A stretch of 64,000 nucleotides of DNA from Devosia ginsengisoli (GTDB lineage: Bacteria > Pseudomonadota > Alphaproteobacteria > Rhizobiales > Devosiaceae), in the NCBI RefSeq assembly GCF_007859655.1, contig NZ_CP042304.1, positions 3,474,501 through 3,538,500 on the forward strand, in the 5' to 3' direction. The stretch's first letter is position 1; each line of letters opens with the position of its first letter. The translations under genes were made by a program, and so were the position numbers. Of this stretch, positions 17,841 to 63,867 are shown piece after piece. The notes under the pieces were generated by a model. The model made no database searches, was not told the DNA's origin, and worked only from the letters and a program-made list of their open reading frames with translations.

Positions 17841-17887
17841 GTGCCGCAGGGGGAGCGTTGGGGCCTTCAGCGCGCTTGGCCCCCCCG

Positions 17888-17922
17888 CCCTCAATCCCTC
17901 CCCATCGAGGGGAGGGAGGCGC
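17888..17922 (+). repeat. 35-bp repeat, left inverted copy
   Basis: This GC-rich segment (around CCCCATCGAGGGG) is an exact inverted copy of 18666-18700. It contains its own palindrome. The two copies flank the receiver-like gene at 17945-18502. Such short palindromic elements are common in Hyphomicrobiales intergenic regions. Confidence 0.8.
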
Positions 17923-18502: not shown

Positions 18503-18665
18503 GCCCCTGCCACTCCACTCTTTCCCGGCGCGCATGGTAGGGTCCGAGTGCTAAGGGAGGGCTAACGGGCGTTCCGTCTGCGAATCCGGTGTTTGCGACT
18601 CACCCCCACCCTTGATCCCTCCCCACAAGGGGGAGGGAGACGATGAACACTAGCCTCTCAGCTTT

Positions 18666-18700
18666 GCGCCTCCCTCCCCTCGATGGGGAGGGATTGAGGG
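18666..18700 (-). repeat. 35-bp repeat, right inverted copy
   Basis: Exact reverse complement of 17888-17922. A related, diverged palindromic block (CCCTCCCCACAAGGGGGAGGG) lies just before it at about 18615-18640, so the 244-bp gap between the receiver-like gene and the LysR gene is largely repeat sequence. Confidence 0.8.
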
Positions 18701-18746
18701 TGGGGTGGGGCCACGCACGCCGACCCCGCCGGAAGCTTGCGAACAC

Positions 18747-27412: not shown

Positions 27413-27576
27413 CCACGGTCACCCTTCTCCCCTTGTGGGAGAAGGTGCCCGAAGGGCGGATGAGGGGGCGCTGCGTTCTCCTTCAGCATTGAAGCATGGG
27501 ATGACGCAGCCCCCTCACCCGGTTTTCCGCTGAGCGTGGAAAACGACCCTCTCCCACAAGGGGCGAGGGGTGGCCA
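27413..27576. repeat. Composite palindromic intergenic repeat
   Basis: About 160 bases form a large imperfect inverted repeat. Outer arms are CCTTCTCCCCTTGTGGGAGAAGG (about 27423-27445) and a diverged partner around CTCTCCCACAAGGGGCGAGG (27549-27568). Inner arms are TGAGGGGGCGCTGCG (27461-27475) and CGCAGCCCCCTCA (27505-27517). Elements like this are typical intergenic repeats of Hyphomicrobiales. With the terminator it fills the 330-bp gap between the DUF2852 and YgjP-type genes. Confidence 0.75.
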
Positions 27577-32946: not shown

Positions 32947-33071
32947 AGCAGGCCTCACGGGGTGACAGCGTCGCCACGATAGCGACCGGCCTTAGCTATG
33001 TCGCCCCCGCCGCATAACCAAGCTGGTTCTGCAGAACGCATTGTTCAGGAGCATGAACGCTGCCCGGAGTC

Positions 33072-33098
33072 CTCATGGTTCGCAAAGCTCACCATGAG
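33072..33098. repeat. Palindromic repeat (CTCATGGT / ACCATGAG)
   Basis: The 8-bp arms CTCATGGT (33072-33079) and ACCATGAG (33091-33098) flank TCGCAAAGCTC. The sequence is related to the paired repeat at 63777-63847 and belongs to a common intergenic repeat type. It lies 21 bases after the end of gyrB and could also act as a hairpin for its transcript. Confidence 0.7.
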
Positions 33099-33119
33099 AG
33101 TAGCCGTTGGGCGATGAGC

Positions 33120-49639: not shown

Positions 49640-50866
49640 ATGAGACGAGTTGTCGTAACCGGCATGGGTATCATTTCCTCGATCGGCAATTCGCTGGACG
49701 AGGTGACCGCGAGCCTGCGCGCCGCAAGGCCTGGCATTGTCGCGGCGCCGGACTATGCCGAACTGGGTTTCCGCAGCCAGGTCAAGGGCGATCCCGGCCT
49801 CGATCCGTTTGAAATCCTCGACCGCCGCACGACCCGTTTCATGGGCAAGGGCGCCGCCTGGAACTACCTCGCCATGCAGCAGGCTATCGAGGATGCCGGG
49901 CTGGAGGAGAGCGACATTTCCAACCCCATGACGGGCATTGTCATGGGTTCGGGAGGCGCCTCGACCCGCACCATCGTCGAAGCTGCCGACATCACCCGCA
50001 AGAATATGAGCCCCAAGCGCATCGGGCCGCTGGCCGTGCCCAAGGCCATGGGCTCCACCGCCTCGGCGACGCTTGCCACGCCCTTCGGCATCAAGGGCAT
50101 CAACTATACGATCACCGCCGCCTGCGCGACGTCCAAGCATTGCATCGGCAATGCCATGGAACAGATCATGCTGGGCAAGCAGGATATCGTCTTTGCCGGC
50201 GGCCACGAGGATCTGGACTGGACGCTGTCGGACCTGTTCGACGCCATGGGCGCCATGAGCTCGGATTTTAACGATACCCCGGAAAAGGCCTCCCGCGCCT
50301 ATGACGCGGCGCGCGACGGCTTCGTGATATCAGGCGGCGCCGGCGTGCTGGTGCTCGAGGAATACGAGCATGCCAAGGCGCGCGGCGCAAAGATCTGGGC
50401 CGAACTGGTGGGCTATGGCGCCACCTCTGATGGCCTCGACATGGTCGCCCCGTCGGGCGAAGGCGCCGAGCGCTGCATGCGCATGGCGCTGAAAAACGTC
50501 CGGCAGAAGGTCGACTACATCAACCCGCATGCCACCTCGACCCCGGTGGGCGACCTGCGTGAGATCGAGGCCATCCGCGAACTGTTCGGCAACGAAGACA
50601 AATGCCCGCCCATCTCGGCCACCAAGTCGCTGACCGGCCATAGCCAGGGCGCGACGGGCGTGCATGAATCGATCTATTCCATCCTGATGATGAAGCACCG
50701 CTTCATTGCCGAAAGCGCCAATATCGAGGTGCTCGACCCCGCCTTCGAGGACATGCCCATCCTGCGGCAGCGCCGCGATGATGTGGATCTCGGCGTGGTG
50801 CTCTCCAATTCATTCGGCTTTGGCGGGACCAATGCAGCGCTGGTCTTCAAGCATCCGGATGCTTGA
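49640..50866 (+). CDS. fabB: 3-oxoacyl-ACP synthase I FabB
   Basis: The 408-residue condensing enzyme elongates acyl-ACP and is needed for unsaturated fatty acids with FabA. The Cys-His-His site is present: C162 in [21 protein letters not shown] and [12 protein letters not shown]. The end [15 protein letters not shown] is characteristic. A GAGGACACG sequence precedes the ATG. In relatives fabI often follows, but here a palindromic repeat and a GIY-YIG gene do. Confidence 0.95.
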
Positions 50867-50907
50867 TTAGCCGGCTCAAGCGACAGACCTTCCCACCCAC
50901 AGACGCT

Positions 50908-50934
50908 TCCCGCGGACTTGATCCGCGGGTCTCT
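50908..50934 (+). repeat. Palindromic repeat, left copy beside GIY-YIG gene
   Basis: The palindrome has 8-bp arms CCCGCGGA (50909-50916) and TCCGCGGG (50922-50929) around CTTGA, plus a TCTCT tail. The whole 27 bases recur inverted at 51252-51278. It ends 18 bases before the GIY-YIG start. Confidence 0.9.
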
Positions 50935-50952
50935 TGTCACGCATGTTGAGGC

Positions 50953-51240
50953 ATGGCTTGGGTTTATATCCTCACGAACCGAAAGTTCGGGACGCTCTAT
51001 ATTGGCGCCACGACCGACCTAGTGCAGCGCGTCTGGCAGCACAAGGGTGAGTTCATCCCGGCCTTCACCAAACGCTACCACCTCAATCGGCTCGTCTATT
51101 TCGAAGAGCATCAGACCATCTATGGCGCCATGCAGCGCGAGCGGACGATGAAGCACTGGAAAGCAGAGTGGAAGGTGGCGTTGATCGAGAAGGACAATCC
51201 CGAATGGGACGACCTTTATTGGGTGATCGCACCAGGATAG
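50953..51240 (+). CDS. GIY-YIG nuclease superfamily protein
   Basis: The 95-residue protein is a single GIY-YIG domain: VYIL (4-7) and LYIGATTDLVQRVWQHK (15-31) with the catalytic arginine R26, then FTKRYHLNRLVYFEEHQT and RERTMKHWKAEWKVALIEKDNPEW with the metal-binding glutamate region. It belongs to the UPF0213-like small GIY-YIG group, whose cellular target is unknown. It sits between exact inverted copies of a palindromic repeat, 18 and 11 bases from its ends, so it may belong to a mobile or repeat-associated unit. The ATG lacks a strong ribosome-binding site. Confidence 0.9.
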   Translation: MAWVYILTNRKFGTLYIGATTDLVQRVWQHKGEFIPAFTKRYHLNRLVYFEEHQTIYGAMQRERTMKHWKAEWKVALIEKDNPEWDDLYWVIAPG

Positions 51241-51251
51241 TGCCCGGGGAG

Positions 51252-51278
51252 AGAGACCCGCGGATCAAGTCCGCGGGA
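51252..51278 (-). repeat. Palindromic repeat, right copy beside GIY-YIG gene
   Basis: Exact reverse complement of 50908-50934 (arms 51257-51264 and 51270-51277). It starts 11 bases after the GIY-YIG stop. Beyond both copies the flanks share a diverged CCCACCCACA-like segment in mirrored orientation. Confidence 0.9.
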
Positions 51279-51320
51279 GGCAATTGTGGGAGAGGTGTGG
51301 GTGGCTCCCTGGACCAATCC

Positions 51321-52037
51321 TCAATACGAAAATTCGCTGAACCGCCCGCCCTTGCCGTCATAGGTCAGCACCCGGCCGATCAATGGCTCGCCAATCCCCG
51401 TGATGAGCTTGACGGCTTCCATGGCCATCAGCGTGCCGATGACTCCCGTCAATGGCCCCAATATGCCTGACGCCTCGCAACTGGGCAGGTCCGTGTCGTC
51501 GGCCTCTTCGGGGTAAAGATCGGCAAAGCGCGGGCCGCCAGGGACGAAGACGGTGACCTGCCCGTCGAACATGGAGACCGCACCCGAAACCAGTGGGACG
51601 CCGAGCGCTTCGCAGGTGGCGGCGACCAGGCGGCGGGTGCCCAGATTGTCGGTGCCATCGAGCACGAGGTCGTAGCCGTCGAGGATGGCGGGCGTATTGG
51701 CGCTGGTGAGTTCTTCGGAATGAACCACCACGCTCACATGCGGATTGAGCGCATGGACAAAGCGCCCGGCGCTTTCGGCCTTGCCGATACCGGTCTCGCT
51801 ATGGATCACCTGGCGGTGCAGGTTGCTGAGCGAAACCGTGTCGTGATCGACAATGCCCAAAGTGCCCACGCCCGCGCCGGCGAGATAGGCGATGACCGGG
51901 CTACCCAGCCCGCCCGCGCCGACCACCAGCACTTTCGCCCGCTTCAGCGCCTGCTGCCCAGCCCCACCCATGCCCTTGAGCACCAGATGGCGCGCATAGC
52001 GGTTTGTTTCGTCGGGCGAGAGCAGGTCAGAGGCCAA
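51321..52037 (-). CDS. moeB: Molybdopterin-synthase adenylyltransferase / ThiF-family E1-like enzyme
   Basis: The 238-residue E1-like protein adenylates the C-terminal glycine of MoaD- or ThiS-type sulfur carriers. It has the start NRYARHLVLKGMGGAGQQAL, the nucleotide loop VLVVGAGGLGSPVIAYLAGAG, DTVSLSNLHRQVIH and DGTDNLGTRR. There is one cysteine in SCEASGILGP; the CxxC pairs of zinc-bearing MoeB are not seen. The start is uncertain: TTG at 52037 ([10 protein letters not shown]) was chosen; a TTG at 52073 would add 12 residues. It overlaps the DUF2259 gene by 11 bases. Confidence 0.85.
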   Translation of the reverse strand: MASDLLSPDETNRYARHLVLKGMGGAGQQALKRAKVLVVGAGGLGSPVIAYLAGAGVGTLGIVDHDTVSLSNLHRQVIHSETGIGKAESAGRFVHALNPHVSVVVHSEELTSANTPAILDGYDLVLDGTDNLGTRRLVAATCEALGVPLVSGAVSMFDGQVTVFVPGGPRFADLYPEEADDTDLPSCEASGILGPLTGVIGTLMAMEAVKLITGIGEPLIGRVLTYDGKGGRFSEFSY

Positions 52038-52752
52038 GCGGCACCGCGAGGAACCGCCGGTCGGGGCCTTCAAAGCCTCCCGGATAGACCGAGATCAGCG
52101 CCACCGCCCCTTCGACCGAACCGGCATTGAAGGGCAGGGTGACGCCATAGAGCCGATAGGTGACCGGGCAGCCGCGCGAGCGGGGCAGGCTTTCGTCGCG
52201 ATGCACCACCCGCTCAGTACCATCAGCGCTGACCGTCAGCTGATAGCCCATGGGATCGACCGAGAACCAGTCGGCGCAGGGCGCCGCGGCCGTGGTGGCA
52301 AAGCTGGACAGGCGCAATTCATAGTCGCCCATCACGGCGCCGGGTTCATAGCCCGGTGCACCAAAGCGCAATGCCTGGGCCTCAACGCCCGGCGCACCAT
52401 CGCCCACCAAAGCCGCCATTTCGGCCGGCACGTCGATCTCGAGCGATGCTATGGTCTCGGCGGCCTTGGCCTGAGCCTCGGCGCGGATCTGGCTCAACGT
52501 GGCCGTCTCGTCATCGGCCCGTACGCGGACCGGGGTGCCCAAGGCCCAGGAATCGGTTTCGAGATTGACGACATAGATGTTGGAATAGGCAAAGCCCGAA
52601 CCGTCCTGGATGCCGAATTCCTCGAAGGCGAAATAATCGGCATCCTGCGAATAGCCGATGACGTCGATCAGCGCCCGGTCGCCCGCCAATGCGGGAGTGA
52701 CCAGGAGCATGAGGCCGCACAGGCCGGCGAAGCTAGCGCCCGGTCGAGCCAT
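52027..52752 (-). CDS. DUF2259 family secreted protein
   Basis: The 241-residue protein has a signal peptide (about 1-24, [10 protein letters not shown]). The mature part begins [38 protein letters not shown], the typical DUF2259 (predicted secreted protein) pattern. A C-terminal [12 protein letters not shown] follows. The function is unknown. The start at 52752 lies 20 bases inside dut; an ATG at 52779 is an alternative. It is translated between dut and moeB in one unit. Confidence 0.82.
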
Positions 52753-53191
52753 GACCGCCCGTGCCGCGTTCGGTTGCATCCAGCGTCTCCCGTTCCCTGA
52801 ATATGACCCGGCTGACCGGCGCCACCACCATCTGTGCAATGCGCTCGCCCCTGCGCACCACAAAGGGGGCAGGCCCGTGATTGATCAGCAGCACCTTGAC
52901 CTCACCACGATAGTCCGCATCCACCGTACCGGGCGAATTGAGCACGGTAACGCCGTGCTTGGCGGCAAGGCCCGAGCGCGGCCTGATTTGTGCCTCATAG
53001 CCCTCGGGCAGGGCGATTGTGAGGCCGGTGGGGATCATGGCCACGGCGCCGGGCGCGATCTCGACCACTTCATCGGGTCCAAGCGCCGCCGCCAGGTCGA
53101 GCCCCGCGGCGCCCGGGGTCTGCTGGCGCGGCAAAGGCAGGCCCTCGCCATGGGCGAGCCAGACCAGACCGATCGAAACAGGGTCGCTCAT
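52733..53191 (-). CDS. dut: dUTP diphosphatase
   Basis: The 152-residue homotrimeric dUTPase hydrolyses dUTP to dUMP. All five motifs are visible: [47 protein letters not shown] and, at the end, [11 protein letters not shown]. The last motif lacks the typical phenylalanine (GGFGSTG becomes GGHGSTG), a natural variant of note. The start at 53191 is standard. Confidence 0.94.
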
Positions 53192-53270
53192 TAAAGGGGA
53201 TGCTCCGCCGCTGCGCCGGCATGATTGCTATCGGGCAATCTAGGGCTAAGTCCTTGAACCGGCAAGAGAC

Positions 53271-54836
53271 CTACCACGAAGCCATGGTCAGCAAACGATA
53301 GAGCAGGACCAGCATGGTAAGGCTGGTAACCCCGATCAGGCCCAGCAGCGCCCAACGCATCAGGCGATCTCGGCGGGGCGCCATCTTGCCGGCATGGTAA
53401 TCGGCCAAAGCCAATTCGGCCTGGGCGGCGATGACCGGCAGGCGCCCTGCCGCTTCGGCAATGGTGTCGAAATGATCCTTGAGGTCCTGCAGCCGCCCCA
53501 GGGGTCCGGCTTCCTTGCGCAGCCAGTCGCCGACCACCGGCTCGGCCACGGTCCAGATATCGAGGTCGGGATCGAGCGCACGGGCGACGCCTTCCACCAG
53601 CACCATGCTCTTCTGCAGCAGCACTAGTTCGGGGCGGGTCTGCATGGAGAACAGGTCGGTAATGGCAAACAGCTGGCCCAGCACTTTGGCCATGGAAATG
53701 TCCGCCGCCGTGCGGCCATGCAGCGGCTCGCCGATGGAGCGGATAGCTAGCGCAAAGTCGTCGACCGACTGATCCCCAGGAACATAGCCGATATCGAAAT
53801 GCCGCTCGGCCACCAGGCGATAATTGCGGGTGATGAAGCCATAGAGGATATCGGCGAGGAAGCGCCGTTCCTTGCGATTGATACGGCCCATAATGCCGAA
53901 ATCGACGGCGATGACGTCGCCGGTCCTGGGATCGGCGAACAGATTGCCCGGATGCATGTCGGCATGGAAGAAGCCGTCGCGGATGGCGTGCTTGAGAAAG
54001 CTCTGCAGCAGCTTGGCCGCCAGCGCCTTGCGGTCGACGCCGGCGGCATCGAGTGCGTCATGCTCGCGGATCGGGATGCCCTCGACCCAGCTTGTGGTCA
54101 GCACATTCTGCGCCACATGGTCCCATGATACGGTGGGAATGACAAAGCCGGTATCGTCCTTGATATTCTCGGCCATTTCCGAAATGGCAGCGGCTTCCAG
54201 CCGCAGGTCGAGTTCGAGCCGGGCCGAGCGGTCGAGGGTTTCGACCACCTCGGTGGGGCGCAGGCGGCGCGTCGAACGCACCAGCCCCTCGGCCAGGCGC
54301 GCGGCGGCATAGAAGCTCTCGATGTCGGACATGAAGCGGGCTTCGACGCCGGGGCGGAGAACCTTGACGGCCACGGTTTTCGGCAGCCCCTTGGCCGGCT
54401 TGAGCCGCGCCTTGTGCACCTGGGCGATGGACGCGGCGGCGACGGGGGGCGACAGTTCGGTCAGCTCGGCCGCCTTGTCCCCGAGCGCCGTGGCGAGAAT
54501 GCCGGGCACCAGAGCCGGGTCGAACGGCTCCATCTTGTCCTGCAGGCCCGAAAGGTCATTGGCGATCTGCGCGCCGACCACATCGGGGCGGGTCGCCAGC
54601 GTCTGGCCGAATTTCACATAGGTGGGGCCAAGCCGGTTCAGCGCCTTGTTGAGGCGTTCGACATGGCCGGTCTTGCGCACGCTCGGCCGTTCCACCAGCC
54701 GCCCCAGCCAGATGCCGAACCGCAAAGGCGCCAGCGCCGGCGGCAGCTCGCCGGGAATGGAGAGGGCCCCTTCGCGCGCAAGCACATAGCCGGCCCGAAA
54801 AAGGCGGAGATAGGCGGAAAGGATCAAATCTTCCAC
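53271..54836 (-). CDS. ubiB: UbiB, ADCK/UbiB atypical kinase for ubiquinone synthesis
   Basis: The 521-residue protein has the KxGQ motif ([14 protein letters not shown]), the alanine-rich loop [14 protein letters not shown], a lysine in [22 protein letters not shown] and VDFGIMGR, the ATPase/kinase residues of UbiB. Two C-terminal helices (about 492-517) anchor it in the inner membrane. It supports ubiquinone biosynthesis. The start is GTG at 54836, 13 bases inside the 3' end of ubiE, so both are coupled. Confidence 0.94.
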
Positions 54837-55588
54837 CCCGAGAACAGCGTGGCGATGTTGCCGGTGAGGGAAGTGTGCTTCACCCGCTTGAAGCCGGCGC
54901 TGGTCAGCATCCCGGAAAAGGCCTGCGGATTGGGGAATTTGCGGATGGATTCCACGAAATACTGGTAGGGCTGGGCATCCCCGGTCACCACCTTGCCCAT
55001 GGGCGGGATGACACGGTCCGAATAGAGCCGGTAGATGGCGTCGAAGCCCGGCACGTCGACCTGGGAGAATTCGAGCACCAGGATGCGCCCGCCCCGCTTG
55101 AGCACGCGATGCGCCTCGTTCAGCGCCTTCTGCACGCGCGGCACATTGCGGATGCCGAAGGCGATCGTATAGGCGTCGAAGCTGTTGTCGTCGAAAGGCA
55201 GTTCCTCGGCATTGGCCTCGACGAAACTGGCCTGCGCAGGATAGCGCCAGCTCTTCGCCCGCTCGGCGCCCACCCGCAGCATATCGGCATTGATGTCGGA
55301 GACGACGACTTCGGCATAGCCCACCGAGGCATTGACGATGCGCTCGGCAATGTCGCCGGTGCCGCCTGCCATGTCGAGCACCCTATAGGGGCGCGACCCG
55401 GTCTTGGGCGGGGCCAGCTCGTTGACCATGGCGCCCTTCCATAACCGGTGCACGCCCCCGCTCATCAGGTCGTTCATCAGGTCATAGCGGTCGGCGACGT
55501 CGTGGAAGACCTTGTCGACCAGGCCCTGCTTGTCGGCCATGGCCACGGTCTGCTCGCCGAAATGGGTGGTCTCCTGCGCGTCGGTCAT
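54824..55588 (-). CDS. ubiE: Ubiquinone/menaquinone methyltransferase UbiE
   Basis: The 254-residue SAM-dependent C-methyltransferase acts in ubiquinone synthesis. Family signatures are [32 protein letters not shown], the [29 protein letters not shown] stretch and the end [12 protein letters not shown]. The start at 55588 was chosen because [15 protein letters not shown] resembles homologues; the frame is open far upstream without coding character. It is divergent from mutM. Confidence 0.95.
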
Positions 55589-55706
55589 GGCCTTCGCCTC
55601 GTGCTTTGCGTATTGGTCGATACGCTCTGTATTGACAGAACGATACATATTCAAAGCAAACCGGCTTTGCCATGGCACAAAGCCGCACAGGTAAATGAGG
55701 CAAAAA

Positions 55707-56594
55707 ATGCCCGAACTGCCCGAGGTCGAAACCGTTCGACGTGGCCTGGAGCCCTGGCTGGTAGGTGCGACCATCGACAAGGTCACCCTCAACCGCAAGG
55801 ACCTGCGCTTTCCTTTCCCCGAAGGGTTGGCGGCGGCACTGGAGGGCCAGAGCATCGTCTCGGTAGGGCGGCGGGCCAAATACCTTCTCATGACGCTGGG
55901 CAATGGCCGGACCGTGCTGAGCCATCTGGGCATGACCGGCTCGTGGCGTTTCGCCGAACATGGCATCGACAAGCCGCCGCGTTATTACGAGCCGGGTACC
56001 GAGCCCAAGCACGACCATATGGTGTGGGACATCACCCACCCTGTTCATGGCAAGAGCCATTTGATCTATGCCGATCCACGTCGCTTCGGCTTCATCGATC
56101 TCTATGATGATGTGGCGGACAGCCCCTATCTCAAGGAGCTTGGCCCCGAGCCGCTGGGCAATGACTTCAATGCCGCGGAAATGGCGGATAAGTTCAAGGG
56201 CAAGAAAACCCCGATCAAGGCGGCTTTGCTCGATCAGCGCGTGGTGGCAGGGCTGGGCAATATCTACGTGGCCGAGGCTTTGCATCGCAGCCACATCCTG
56301 CCCACCGTGCTGGCGGGAACGCTGGTAACCGCCAAGGGCGCCCCCAAGCCGGCGCTGGACGATCTGGCCCATGCGGTGCGGCAGGTTCTGGTCGAAGCCA
56401 TTGAAGTCGGCGGCTCGACTTTGCGCGATTTTCGCAATGCCGAGGGCGGCTCGGGCTATTTCCAGCACCACTTTGCCGTCTACGACCGCGAAGGCGAGCC
56501 CTGCCCGACGCCGCTTTGCACGGGCACGATACAGCGCATTGTGCAGTCCGGGCGCTCGACGTTCTTTTGCCCGGTTTGCCAGAAAGCGCCTTGA
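55707..56594 (+). CDS. mutM: Formamidopyrimidine-DNA glycosylase MutM
   Basis: The 295-residue repair enzyme excises 8-oxoguanine. The catalytic start [18 protein letters not shown] requires proline right after the initiator, so the start must be at 55707, not four codons upstream. GAGG precedes it. [28 protein letters not shown] and the C-terminal zinc finger (CPTPLC and CPVC) are complete. It is divergent from ubiE; the ubiE-mutM neighbourhood is typical for the order. Confidence 0.96.
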
Positions 56595-56655
56595 GCTCGG
56601 GCTGCTTTTGCCGCAGTCGCCTGCTAAAGATGGCGCATAAGAAGACTGCCGGAGG

Positions 56656-58338
56656 ATGCGCCAATTGGCCCCGATCGACCTTTCCGCCGCCCCCTTCAAC
56701 CTCGATGACGAGGCCATTGCCTGGGTCGCGTCTACGCGCGATGGGCTGACGCCGCGCGACAAGCTGGCCCAGCTTTTCGTGCTTCTGGCGCGCGGCACGT
56801 CGGAAGAGGTCGCAGCCGAAGTGCGCAGCTTCAAGCCGGGCGGCATTACCCGCATCTATTCCGACGATATCGTCGCCGAGATCAACCTGGCGCGCGAACT
56901 GGGCGCCCTGAGCTCTATTCCGCTGCTGGTCAGCGCTGATCTCGAAGGCAGCCGGATGAGCCTGCCCTTCGGCACCTCAGTACCCAATCCGCTCGGCCTC
57001 GCCGCTGTTGACGATGTGGAGGCGACGACGGCCATCTCCACCATCATGGCGAAAGAGGCGGCGGCCGTCGGGCTCAACTGGAGCTTCACCCCGGTCATCG
57101 ACATCAACCAGGCCTGGCGCAGCGCCATTGTCGGCACCCGCTCCTATGGCAGCGACATGGGCAAGGTCGAGCGCCACGCTTTGGCGCAGATCGCGGCCTT
57201 CCAGGCCAATGGTGTCGCTGCCACCGTCAAGCACTGGCCGGGCGAGGGCTATGACGACCGCGACCAGCATCTGGTGACCACCGTCAATCCGCTCTCAATG
57301 CCCGAATGGGAAAAGACCTTCGGCCAGCTCTACCGCAAGGCCATCGCCGCGGGCGTGATGAGCGTCATGTCGGCCCATATCGCTCTGCCCGCCTTCGTGC
57401 GGGCACTCGACCCCGATGCGGGCGCCGAGGCCTTCCGCCCCGCCTCGCTGAGCAAGGTGCTGAACGAAGACCTGCTGCGGCGCGAACTGGGCTTCAATGG
57501 CCTCATCGTCTCCGACGCGACACCCATGGCCGGCATGGGCGATTGGGGGCCGCGCGACGACGTGCTGCCCGAAGTCATCATATCGGGCTGCGACGTCATC
57601 CTCTTCACCGACGACCCCAATGGCGACCTGATGCGGCTGGTCAAGGCCGTCGCCGACGGTCGCCTGAGCCAGGAGCGGGTGGACGAGGCGGTGACGCGCG
57701 TCCTGGCGCTCAAGGCCGCCTTGGGCCTGCACAAGGCAGACCGCCCCGAACCCAATCTCGACACGGCGCGCACTGTGGTGGCCTTGCCGGAAAACCTGGC
57801 CTTGGCGCAGACCGTGACGGCGCGCGTGCCGACCCTGGTCAAGGATGTCAAAAACCTGCTGCCGCTCTCGCCTGCACGACACAAGCGCGTGCTGGTCTAT
57901 TCGGGCGGCGTCATTCTGCCCTTCGTGCCCCATCCACTGCCGCTCAGCCTACCTGAACGGCTGGAAAAGGAGGGTTTCGAGGTCGTGGTCTATGCGCCCG
58001 GCATGGAGGTGAGCCCGAAGAATTTCGATCTCGTGCTCTACCTCTTCGCCGAGGAAACCGTACTGACCCGCAGCCGCATCTTCCTCGACTGGATGAAACT
58101 CACCGGCTCGGTCTTCGGCGCCATGAGCCGTCTCTGGCACGACGTGCCCACGCTGATGATTTCCTTTGGCTATCCCTACTATCTCTACGACGCCCCGCGC
58201 GTGCCGGCCTATGTCAACGCCTATGGCTCGAGCGAGGACATGCAGGCGGCGGTGCTGGAAGCCATCATGGGCCGCGCACCTTTTGCCGGAACGAGCCCGG
58301 TCGATCCCTTCGTGGGCAGCGAGCAGGGGAAGTATTGA
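56656..58338 (+). CDS. Glycoside hydrolase family 3 protein
   Basis: The 560-residue protein is a GH3 beta-glycosidase, most like beta-N-acetylglucosaminidases: SIPLLVSADLEGSRM, NWSFTPVIDINQAWRSAIVGTRSYGSD, VKHWPGEGYDDRDQH and the nucleophile D287 in NGLIVSDATPMAG. The loop reads KHWPGEG where NagZ has KHFPGHG, so the catalytic His-Asp dyad differs. A second domain (about 380-560) follows. No signal peptide is seen. GGAGG directly abuts the ATG; a TTG nine bases on (MAPIDLS) may be the real start. Substrate unknown. Confidence 0.85.
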   Translation: MRQLAPIDLSAAPFNLDDEAIAWVASTRDGLTPRDKLAQLFVLLARGTSEEVAAEVRSFKPGGITRIYSDDIVAEINLARELGALSSIPLLVSADLEGSRMSLPFGTSVPNPLGLAAVDDVEATTAISTIMAKEAAAVGLNWSFTPVIDINQAWRSAIVGTRSYGSDMGKVERHALAQIAAFQANGVAATVKHWPGEGYDDRDQHLVTTVNPLSMPEWEKTFGQLYRKAIAAGVMSVMSAHIALPAFVRALDPDAGAEAFRPASLSKVLNEDLLRRELGFNGLIVSDATPMAGMGDWGPRDDVLPEVIISGCDVILFTDDPNGDLMRLVKAVADGRLSQERVDEAVTRVLALKAALGLHKADRPEPNLDTARTVVALPENLALAQTVTARVPTLVKDVKNLLPLSPARHKRVLVYSGGVILPFVPHPLPLSLPERLEKEGFEVVVYAPGMEVSPKNFDLVLYLFAEETVLTRSRIFLDWMKLTGSVFGAMSRLWHDVPTLMISFGYPYYLYDAPRVPAYVNAYGSSEDMQAAVLEAIMGRAPFAGTSPVDPFVGSEQGKY

Positions 58339-58378
58339 GGGTCGGGGATTGCCCCATCTCTCCCACCCACAATCGCCT

Positions 58379-58451
58379 CCCCCGGACTTGATCCGGGGGG
58401 CTCTCACTACTTGTGCCGGATTGAGATTGACCCGCGGATCAAGTCCGCGGG
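58379..58451. repeat. Inverted pair of palindromic repeats without ORF
   Basis: The left palindrome CCCCCGGA-CTTGA-TCCGGGGG (58379-58399) and the right one in inverted orientation, CCCGCGGA-TCAAG-TCCGCGGG (58431-58451), are 31 bases apart. They are the same element that frames the GIY-YIG gene. The left copy has compensating changes in both arms. They fill the gap between the GH3 gene and folC and may also end transcription. Confidence 0.9.
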
Positions 58452-58482
58452 AGGCGTCGGTGGTTGGGGGAATTCCAGCCCC

Positions 58483-59778
58483 TCAATCCGGCGGCGTCTT
58501 GTTCTGCGCCAGCACGGCGCCCGCGAGATAAAGCGAGCCGCAGATCAGCACCCTGGCATTGGGCACATCAGCGGCGGCCTTGAGCGCCGCGGTCACCGAC
58601 CGCATCGGCCGCGCATCGAAGCCCGCCTTCCTCGCTTCATCAGCAATGTAAGCAGCCTTGTGGGCATTGGGTTCGCCGGGGATAGTCAAGGTGAACACCT
58701 GCTGCGCCATGCCGGCAAAGGGCGCCAGAACCGCTGCCGGCGCGCGGGTATTCATCAACCCCATGATCAGCACCAGTGGCGCCGGGCGGACACGGTCGAG
58801 ATCGCGCAGCGTGGTCGCCACCGCCGCCGCGCCATGGGCATTGTGGATGCCGTCGAGCCACAGCTCGGCGCCGGGACCAAGCAGGTCGCGCAGCGGCCCG
58901 GTCTGCAGCGGCGTCATCCGCGCCGGCCAGCGCACCGCCCGCAAGCCGCGGGCAAAGGCGTCCGCATCGACAGGGAGTTCGAAATGCCGTGCCGCCGCGA
59001 TGGCGAGGGCGGCATTGTCGAACTGATGCGCCCCCAGCAGGCCCGGTGGCGGCAGGTCGAGCAATCCGGCCTCGTCCTGGTAGACCAGCCGCCCATCCTG
59101 CTCCATCCCGTGGAAATCCTCGCCCTGCCAGATCGGGCCGATGCCCAGCTTCCGTGCGGCACGATCCAGCACGGCGCGGCCCTCGTCCTTCTGGAGCCCG
59201 ATCACCGCCTTGCTGCCGCGCTTGAAAATGCCGGCCTTGTTGACGGCGATTTCCCCAATCGTATTGCCAAGAAACCCCTGATGATCGAGGTCGATGGGCG
59301 TAATGATCACCCCCAGCGGCTGGGCCACGACATTGGTCGTGTCATAGGTGCCGCCCATGCCGGTTTCGAGCAGCAGGTAATCGGCCTTGGTCTCGGCGAA
59401 GAGCAGGAAGGCGGTAGCCGTGGTGATCTCGAAAAAGGTCATCGGCCTTTGCGCATTGACCCGCTCGACCTGTTCCAGCGCCGCATTGAGCCGCCGCGTC
59501 CCCACCAGCCTACCGGCCAGCCGGATGCGTTCGTTGAAATGCACCAGATGCGGGGAATTATAGGCATGCACCTTCTTGCCTGCCGCTTCGAGAAAAGCGC
59601 GCAGATAGGCGATGGTGGAGCCCTTGGCATTGGTGCCGGCGACATGGATCACCGGTGGCAGATGTTCATGCGGGCTGCCCAGATCGGCCAGCAGCGGCAG
59701 GATGCGGTCGAGGCTGAGATCGATCAGCTTGGGGTGCAGCGCCGAAAGGCGCTTGAGAATGGCATCGGTACGGGACAT
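58483..59778 (-). CDS. folC: Folylpolyglutamate synthase / dihydrofolate synthase
   Basis: The 431-residue Mur-ligase-like enzyme adds glutamate to dihydropteroate and folates. It has the P-loop HVAGTNAKGSTIAYLRAFLEAAG, SPHLVHFNERIRLAG, LLLETGMGGTYDTTNVV and LWLDGIHNAHGAAAVA. The start ILKRLSALHPKLIDLSLDRI matches alphaproteobacterial FolC. It lies downstream of accD on the same strand (71-base gap), the usual accD-folC order. Confidence 0.95.
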   Translation of the reverse strand: MSRTDAILKRLSALHPKLIDLSLDRILPLLADLGSPHEHLPPVIHVAGTNAKGSTIAYLRAFLEAAGKKVHAYNSPHLVHFNERIRLAGRLVGTRRLNAALEQVERVNAQRPMTFFEITTATAFLLFAETKADYLLLETGMGGTYDTTNVVAQPLGVIITPIDLDHQGFLGNTIGEIAVNKAGIFKRGSKAVIGLQKDEGRAVLDRAARKLGIGPIWQGEDFHGMEQDGRLVYQDEAGLLDLPPPGLLGAHQFDNAALAIAAARHFELPVDADAFARGLRAVRWPARMTPLQTGPLRDLLGPGAELWLDGIHNAHGAAAVATTLRDLDRVRPAPLVLIMGLMNTRAPAAVLAPFAGMAQQVFTLTIPGEPNAHKAAYIADEARKAGFDARPMRSVTAALKAAADVPNARVLICGSLYLAGAVLAQNKTPPD

Positions 59779-63776: not shown

Positions 63777-63847
63777 CCTCATCCTGAGCTTGTCGAAAAC
63801 GAGGTTCGGTGCGCACGACCTCGTGGTTCGACAGGCTCACCATGAGG
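63777..63847. repeat. Inverted pair of intergenic repeats between trpF and trpB
   Basis: One copy lies at 63777-63804 (CCTCATCCTGAGCTTGTCGA...) and a diverged inverted copy at 63819-63847 (...TTCGACAGGCTCACCATGAGG). They share the CCTCATnnTGAGCnTGTCGAA core, also found in part at 33072-33098. A common Hyphomicrobiales palindromic repeat type. Confidence 0.75.
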
Positions 63848-63867
63848 GTCTGTCAGCGCTTTGCTTT

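Follow-up and report, generated by a model that had tools for sequence, protein, structure and literature searches.

The genome of Devosia ginsengisoli carries a small GIY-YIG nuclease gene enclosed by inverted copies of a short palindrome, and the same palindrome recurs genome-wide as gene-less inverted pairs. The stretch of DNA analysed here, hereafter the window, comprises 64,000 nucleotides (3474501-3538500 of the 4.48-Mb single-contig genome, labelled G000; other G numbers denote genomes, and L numbers GIY-YIG loci). We propose that this gene and the palindromes scattered through the genome are parts of a single genetic system, with nuclease-linked autonomous and non-autonomous forms, and place the probability of this reading at about 0.5. 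Enzyme and repeats look like one system because, across related loci, particular kinds of enzyme are mostly found with particular kinds of repeat.

A GIY-YIG nuclease gene within inverted arms

The gene and its arms occupy the following positions of the window:

50892..50934, + strand: left terminal arm, with outer CCCACCCAC..., the palindrome at 50909-50929, then subterminal GTCTCT
50953-51240, + strand: GIY-YIG nuclease gene, 95 aa, single-domain (from the open reading frame (ORF) list, Pfam and conserved residues)
51252..51290, - strand: right terminal arm, an inverted copy of the left arm (39 nt, 90%), with the palindrome at 51257-51277

Judged from its sequence, the 95-aa product is a member of the GIY-YIG nuclease superfamily. 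Its Pfam GIY-YIG domain scores 44 bits against a gathering score of 22.6 (E 2.7e-11), and residues of catalytic type are kept across the 121 nucleases compared below (Y5 in 119, Y16 in 119, R26 in 121, E63 in 120 and N82 in 117); we take these conserved Tyr, Tyr, Arg, Glu and Asn residues to be those of the GIY-YIG motifs. NCBIfam gave no match for the product. Weak matches to UzuA in PADLOC (E 0.0028) and to homing endonucleases in PHROGs (best E 0.001) were not used, and the WD-40 repeat proteins that headed a PDB sequence search were judged spurious because no single stretch passes; the same search returned UPF0213 BH0048 (1zg2) at E 0.23. The ortholog in G074 is 86% identical, and on the substitution rates between the two copies (nonsynonymous, dN, 0.070; synonymous, dS, 1.44) the gene has evolved under purifying selection. 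A second nuclease of the family is found in G000 (L002, contig C1 3761307-3761576), 49% identical to the first, with CCCGGCCTTGAGCCGGG repeats downstream that number 65 copies in this genome. Broken nuclease copies lie beside surviving palindromes at L233-L235.

The initial annotation had described a 95-residue single-domain GIY-YIG ORF between two 27-bp segments in exact inverted orientation, lying 18 and 11 bases from the ORF. This description is accurate: 50908-50934 and 51252-51278 are reverse complements without a mismatch, each forms a hairpin with an 8-bp stem, and the distances hold. The arms themselves extend further than claimed, over 39 nt at 90% complementarity (50896-50934 and 51252-51290). 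Each holds the 21-nt palindrome CCCGCGGACTTGATCCGCGGG, with an 8-bp stem and a 5-nt loop, and as single-stranded DNA (ssDNA) each is predicted to fold into a hairpin of -11.3 kcal/mol (z -4.0 and -4.6). An Rfam scan of 50000-59500 gave no match at the gathering score.

A dispersed family of paired palindromes

The core of the palindrome, CSCGGACTTGATCCGSG, has 38 exact matches genome-wide and its reversed control none, so the repeat is not a product of chance. At up to one mismatch there are 40 copies, 34 of which make up 17 inverted pairs, always + then -, with starts 52 bp apart in 16 pairs and 53 bp in one. Two further copies are the pair around the nuclease gene, 348 bp apart, and four have no matching partner. 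In an alignment of 26 arms, contributed by 13 of the 17 pairs, about 19 nt outside the core are conserved as CCCACCCACNNNCGCYTCC, with a majority base in 18-26 of the 26 arms except at a variable NNN and one C/T column; beyond this the majority base reaches at most 14 of 26. Because arm conservation ends about 19 nt outside the core, the pairs are bounded elements of about 109 bp that resemble REPINs, paired repetitive extragenic palindromic (REP) sequences. One such element lies in the window itself:

58361..58470, no strand assigned: REPIN-like, putatively non-autonomous element between convergent genes, with palindromes at 58379-58399 and 58431-58451 and cores 52 bp apart

This ORF-less pair had been called the same pair as that around the gene. 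The pair is real, but it is not exactly the gene's pair because its left palindrome differs in the outer stem (CCCCCGG...CCGGGGG). A single long hairpin is predicted for it, with z about -8 on both strands.

Repeat type follows nuclease clade

Homologs of the nuclease were found in 54 of 75 genomes of the genus (E <= 1e-5; weak matches not all fetched), and 34 loci came from named genomes that include Alpha-, Beta- and Gammaproteobacteria, Planctomycetes and Chloroflexi. After four duplicates were dropped from 125 examined loci, 121 remained. A recognised palindrome type (A to F) was present within 200 bp at 109 of these, flanking both sides of 83 loci and a single side of 26; the other 12 had none. 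A test independent of type, which asked only for perfect stems of at least 8 bp within 150 bp, found hairpins on both sides at 64 of 118 loci (three more had flanks too short to use), whereas shifted placements gave 1 of 458. Among 13 genes of another GIY-YIG clade from the same genus (SYYVGLT; one of them broken), none had a hairpin on both sides, and only L221 has a palindrome of a family type, 163 bp downstream. An outward [CT]GTC-tagged hairpin occurs at 84 of the 121 nuclease loci (57 strictly CGTC), compared with 6 and 4 of 231 control windows, each a single 206-bp window and counted in either orientation. No CGTC or TGTC tag lies 5' of the stem at any of the three type-A nuclease loci.

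On a tree of the 121 nucleases, flank type changes 15 times, against a mean of 59.7 after shuffling, and none of 200 shuffles was as low; the tree is built on 98 columns, with 52 of 118 inner branches unresolved and 14 rows uncounted. Type A (CGGACTTGATCCG) flanks the window's gene and the G074 ortholog, type B (CTCGGGCTTGACCCGAG) is found on their sister rows, and at L034 the two occur together. Two changes account for the type-A flanks on this tree, and 6 of 500 shuffles gave a value as low. Just inside the hairpin, too, the sequence is closest to the REPIN spacers of its own type, for each of the four types examined. Over 12 positions it matches cognate spacers at a mean of 9.25 for A (4 sequences), 9.88 for B (40), 10.2 for C (15) and 8.82 for E (11), and non-cognate spacers at 4.1-8.0. 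Spacers were taken only from loci without a nuclease, with seven cases dropped, and the order was unchanged with equally small spacer sets; the type-A value comes from just four sequences and stands beside 8.0 to type C. Nucleases of one flank type occur in many gene contexts, for example 17 for the 30 type-B loci.

Copy number and the cognate nuclease

Palindrome copies were compared with nuclease presence in 68 of the 75 genomes (completeness >=90%), subtracting four copies for the gene's own flanks. A nuclease counted as present where its locus had been fetched and labelled, and for type D, in line with the pattern searched, this was limited to the 10 of 22 loci whose sub-clade has ATTCCGGC-type flanks. 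Copies were higher with the cognate nuclease for type B (25 genomes with, 43 without, p 6e-5), C (16 and 52, p 0.003), D (8 and 60, p 2e-4), E (9 and 59, p 9e-4) and F (6 and 62, p 0.02). None of 2000 swap-randomised tables, in which types per genome and genomes per type were kept, reached the observed sum. When nucleases of types A, B, C and E were compared with one another's palindromes, the rows for B, C and E gave weaker results off the diagonal than on it; the exception is the type-A row, where A-nuclease against B copies gave p 0.014, not weaker than the diagonal. For type A itself three genomes with the nuclease stand against 65 without (p 0.12). The initial annotation would have dropped the link if palindrome abundance were independent of the nuclease; for five of six types it is not, and for the window's own no dependence could be established. 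Type-F palindromes number 100 in G025 and 79 in G065, neither of which has a type-F-labelled nuclease in the set.

Empty and filled orthologous junctions

The neighbours of the element, under the names of the initial annotation, mark its orthologous junction:

49640..50866, + strand: fabB-like gene, left neighbour
51321..52073, - strand: moeB-like gene, right neighbour

Thirty fabB-moeB loci were fetched, with both genes readable in 26. By the homolog search, the nuclease gene sits at this junction in only two of the 30, G000 and G074. The initial annotation would have given up the link had all relatives carried the gene here with the palindromes absent or unrelated, and this did not occur. 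The junction measures just 3-10 bp in G013, G049, G025 and G010. G058 has a type-A pair without the gene, and G048 at least one type-A palindrome (moeB not found). Elsewhere it holds type B (G022, G043 and G015, some degenerate), C (G034 and G047), E (G008), F (G026), an F/D mix (G065) or unrelated sequence. At the 58.4-kb junction (30 loci, both genes in 28), G013, G065, G026, G056 and G009 have the two genes overlapping by 4 bp, and in G000 they lie 144 bp apart, with the REPIN between them; type D occupies it in G016 and type E in G033. Thirteen G000 elements were compared with the fetched part of the G013 genome: both flanks were found for 10 (89-96% identical, one flank 78%), of which one element is shared and nine are absent (eight REPINs and the nuclease element). 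For sites seen only in that comparison, loss in G013 may be an alternative to gain. Junction occupancy is lineage-specific.

The window holds further repeats. CCTCCCC(ATCGA/TTGTG)GGGGAGG-type palindromes lie inverted at 17880-17922 and 18600-18708 (43 nt, 95%), and similar repeats occupy the 58.4-kb junction in G022, G043 and G034. An inverted pair CCTTCTCCCCTTGTGGGAGAAGG / CCCTCTCCCACAAGGGG of about 160 bp (27417-27575) belongs to a further REPIN-like family. Repeats of the form CCTCRTGGTTCG...CTCACCATGAG are found at 33071-33101 and 63819-63849, and this kind sits in the fabB-moeB or 58.4-kb junction of G037, G036, G050, G064 and G020.

A possible mechanism and its alternatives

In the proposed system the autonomous form would comprise the 39-nt inverted arms and the GIY-YIG ORF, and the short form the paired palindromes of about 109 bp, which have arms and subterminal sequences in common with it and no gene. 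The palindrome would form a hairpin where it becomes single-stranded, for instance on the template of the lagging strand or in DNA being taken up, and its nuclease would recognise this hairpin and nick beside it. The strand thus released or primed might then be copied into another gap via arm annealing; alternatively, the nick might bias repair in favour of the repeat. To our knowledge GIY-YIG enzymes hydrolyse DNA and form no covalent intermediate, unlike HUH transposases, so that a repair-assisted copy step would be more likely than direct strand transfer. The initial annotation had likened the locus to REP and bacterial interspersed mosaic elements with a nuclease in place of the transposase. 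The anatomy agrees with that likeness in its inverted REP pairs, shared subterminal sequences, co-variation of enzyme and repeat, and empty sites; that the nuclease mobilises the repeats is something we infer.

Several observations weigh against this reading. At either end of the filled sites there is a further stretch of about 11-27 nt that is not repeat, and the five junctions compared show no consistent target-site duplication, so that clean transposition is not demonstrated. No recognised palindrome type was found at 12 of the 121 nuclease loci; three of these (L084, L090 and L091) carry a partial CGTCATTGCGA-type repeat. Some nucleases have a common gene context across species and so were inherited in place. 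The genomes are related, not independent, and the copy-number test was made without a species tree. Some of the genomes richest in type A have no nuclease flanked by it (127 copies in G058, 49 in G037, 38 in G057, 36 in G015 and 34 in G016), and G000 itself has 75 type-B and 27 type-C palindromes but lacks a nuclease with flanks of those types. Such repeat-rich genomes would be explained if the nuclease had been lost once the repeats had spread, or if a different enzyme served them. Divergent GIY-YIG genes in type-A-rich genomes were considered as the missing type-A enzyme and rejected, on the lack of two-sided hairpins in the SYYVGLT clade and on a search for the type-A core. Near 53 further GIY-YIG loci (a set defined without UvrC-length matches that had no assigned locus), the type-A core was found only at the window's L210 and at the UvrC-length L212 (G013, about 1.4 kb away), and a Pfam search of type-A-rich genomes found no alternative type-A-flanked enzyme among the loci checked.

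The strongest rival, which we consider unlikely though well short of negligible, draws on Ssn of Neisseria, reportedly a family of site-specific ssDNA GIY-YIG nucleases with an NTS repeat, said to have appeared in Nature Communications in 2025. Here the nuclease would cut incoming ssDNA at its repeat and tune natural transformation without mobilising anything, and the repeats would persist as targets or as sites of protection, with recombination spreading them. The shared enzyme superfamily and size, the many repeat copies and the clade-matched repeat type would all fit. However, gene-bearing and gene-less pairs have arms and subterminal sequences in common, and repeats lie in junctions that are empty in relatives; both look like an element and not just a target site, and recognition of incoming DNA alone leaves the gain of copies unexplained.

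It is improbable that another enzyme, a REP-associated tyrosine transposase (RAYT) or an insertion sequence transposase, moves the palindromes, with the nuclease a passenger or a chance neighbour of insertions. The type-A-rich genomes without an A-flanked nuclease would suit this idea, and for GTAG REPs movement by RAYTs has been hypothesised (PMC3733652). Against it stand the clade-matched flanks, the specificity of copy number, the single hit among 458 control placements and the bare flanks of the other GIY-YIG clade; in the 2013 survey, moreover, CGTC REPs were not associated with transposase genes (PMC3733652). A role for the hairpins as ordinary terminators of transcription, or as structures that stabilise mRNA, is very improbable: both window pairs are intergenic with GC-rich stems, that at 58.4 kb between convergent genes, but the stems at 50.9 and 51.3 kb have no T-run after them (no dedicated terminator scan was made), and bounded 109-bp units with conserved arms, present or absent between close relatives and matched to nuclease clade, would be foreign to such structures.

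Relation to known systems

Repeats of a related kind have been surveyed as CGTC REPs, described as mostly alphaproteobacterial, with stems of 8-9 bp, loops of 4-5 nt and head-to-head dimers (PMC3733652); they 'apparently lack a dedicated transposase' (Di Nocera et al. 2013, PMC3733652), and dRS3 of Neisseria is a CGTC-1 REP (PMC3733652). Type A resembles them in its 8-bp stem and 5-nt loop, and many nuclease loci of the family have CGTC-tagged hairpins, whereas the window's type A lacks the tag. Two GIY-YIG genes in Caulobacter are described as controlled by XRE factors and a phage regulator (PMC10688885). Our literature search found no paper linking GIY-YIG nucleases with REPs, and we make no claim that none is in print. 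We tentatively suggest, at somewhat less than even odds, that a widespread class of bacterial repeats, CGTC REPs such as dRS3 among them, consists of non-autonomous copies of tiny elements that have a stand-alone GIY-YIG nuclease as their only gene. Their spread would be driven by this nuclease instead of an HUH transposase, and enzyme and hairpin would co-evolve clade by clade. If true, minimal elements would have a further route to populate a genome beside those of HUH, DDE and recombinase enzymes; nuclease-based repeat spreading would occur in bacteria, and a ready series of nucleases with different hairpin specificities would be at hand. The data point to a candidate enzyme whose clades are matched to repeat types, at loci in several phyla; a single purified protein and a handful of oligonucleotides would suffice for a test.

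The closest enzyme known to us is Ssn of Neisseria, of which the Devosia nuclease is probably a relative. Both would be small single-domain GIY-YIG enzymes with a cognate repeat in many genomic copies (38 exact here). Compared with Ssn as reported, the Devosia gene differs in lying within inverted arms shared with dispersed paired elements, in its untagged type A, and in orthologous junctions that differ between species.

The likeness to REPIN-RAYT systems lies in inverted pairs of short palindromes in tens of copies, an enzyme gene flanked by its own repeat, and gene-less short forms. The enclosed enzyme is GIY-YIG and not an HUH/Y1 tyrosine transposase, and the GTAG tag is absent, the arm beside the core being CCCACCCACNNNCGCYTCC; by enzyme and tag, therefore, the system is not a member of that group. 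Our best reading is that the Devosia system works like REPIN-RAYT with a GIY-YIG enzyme, in autonomous and non-autonomous forms.
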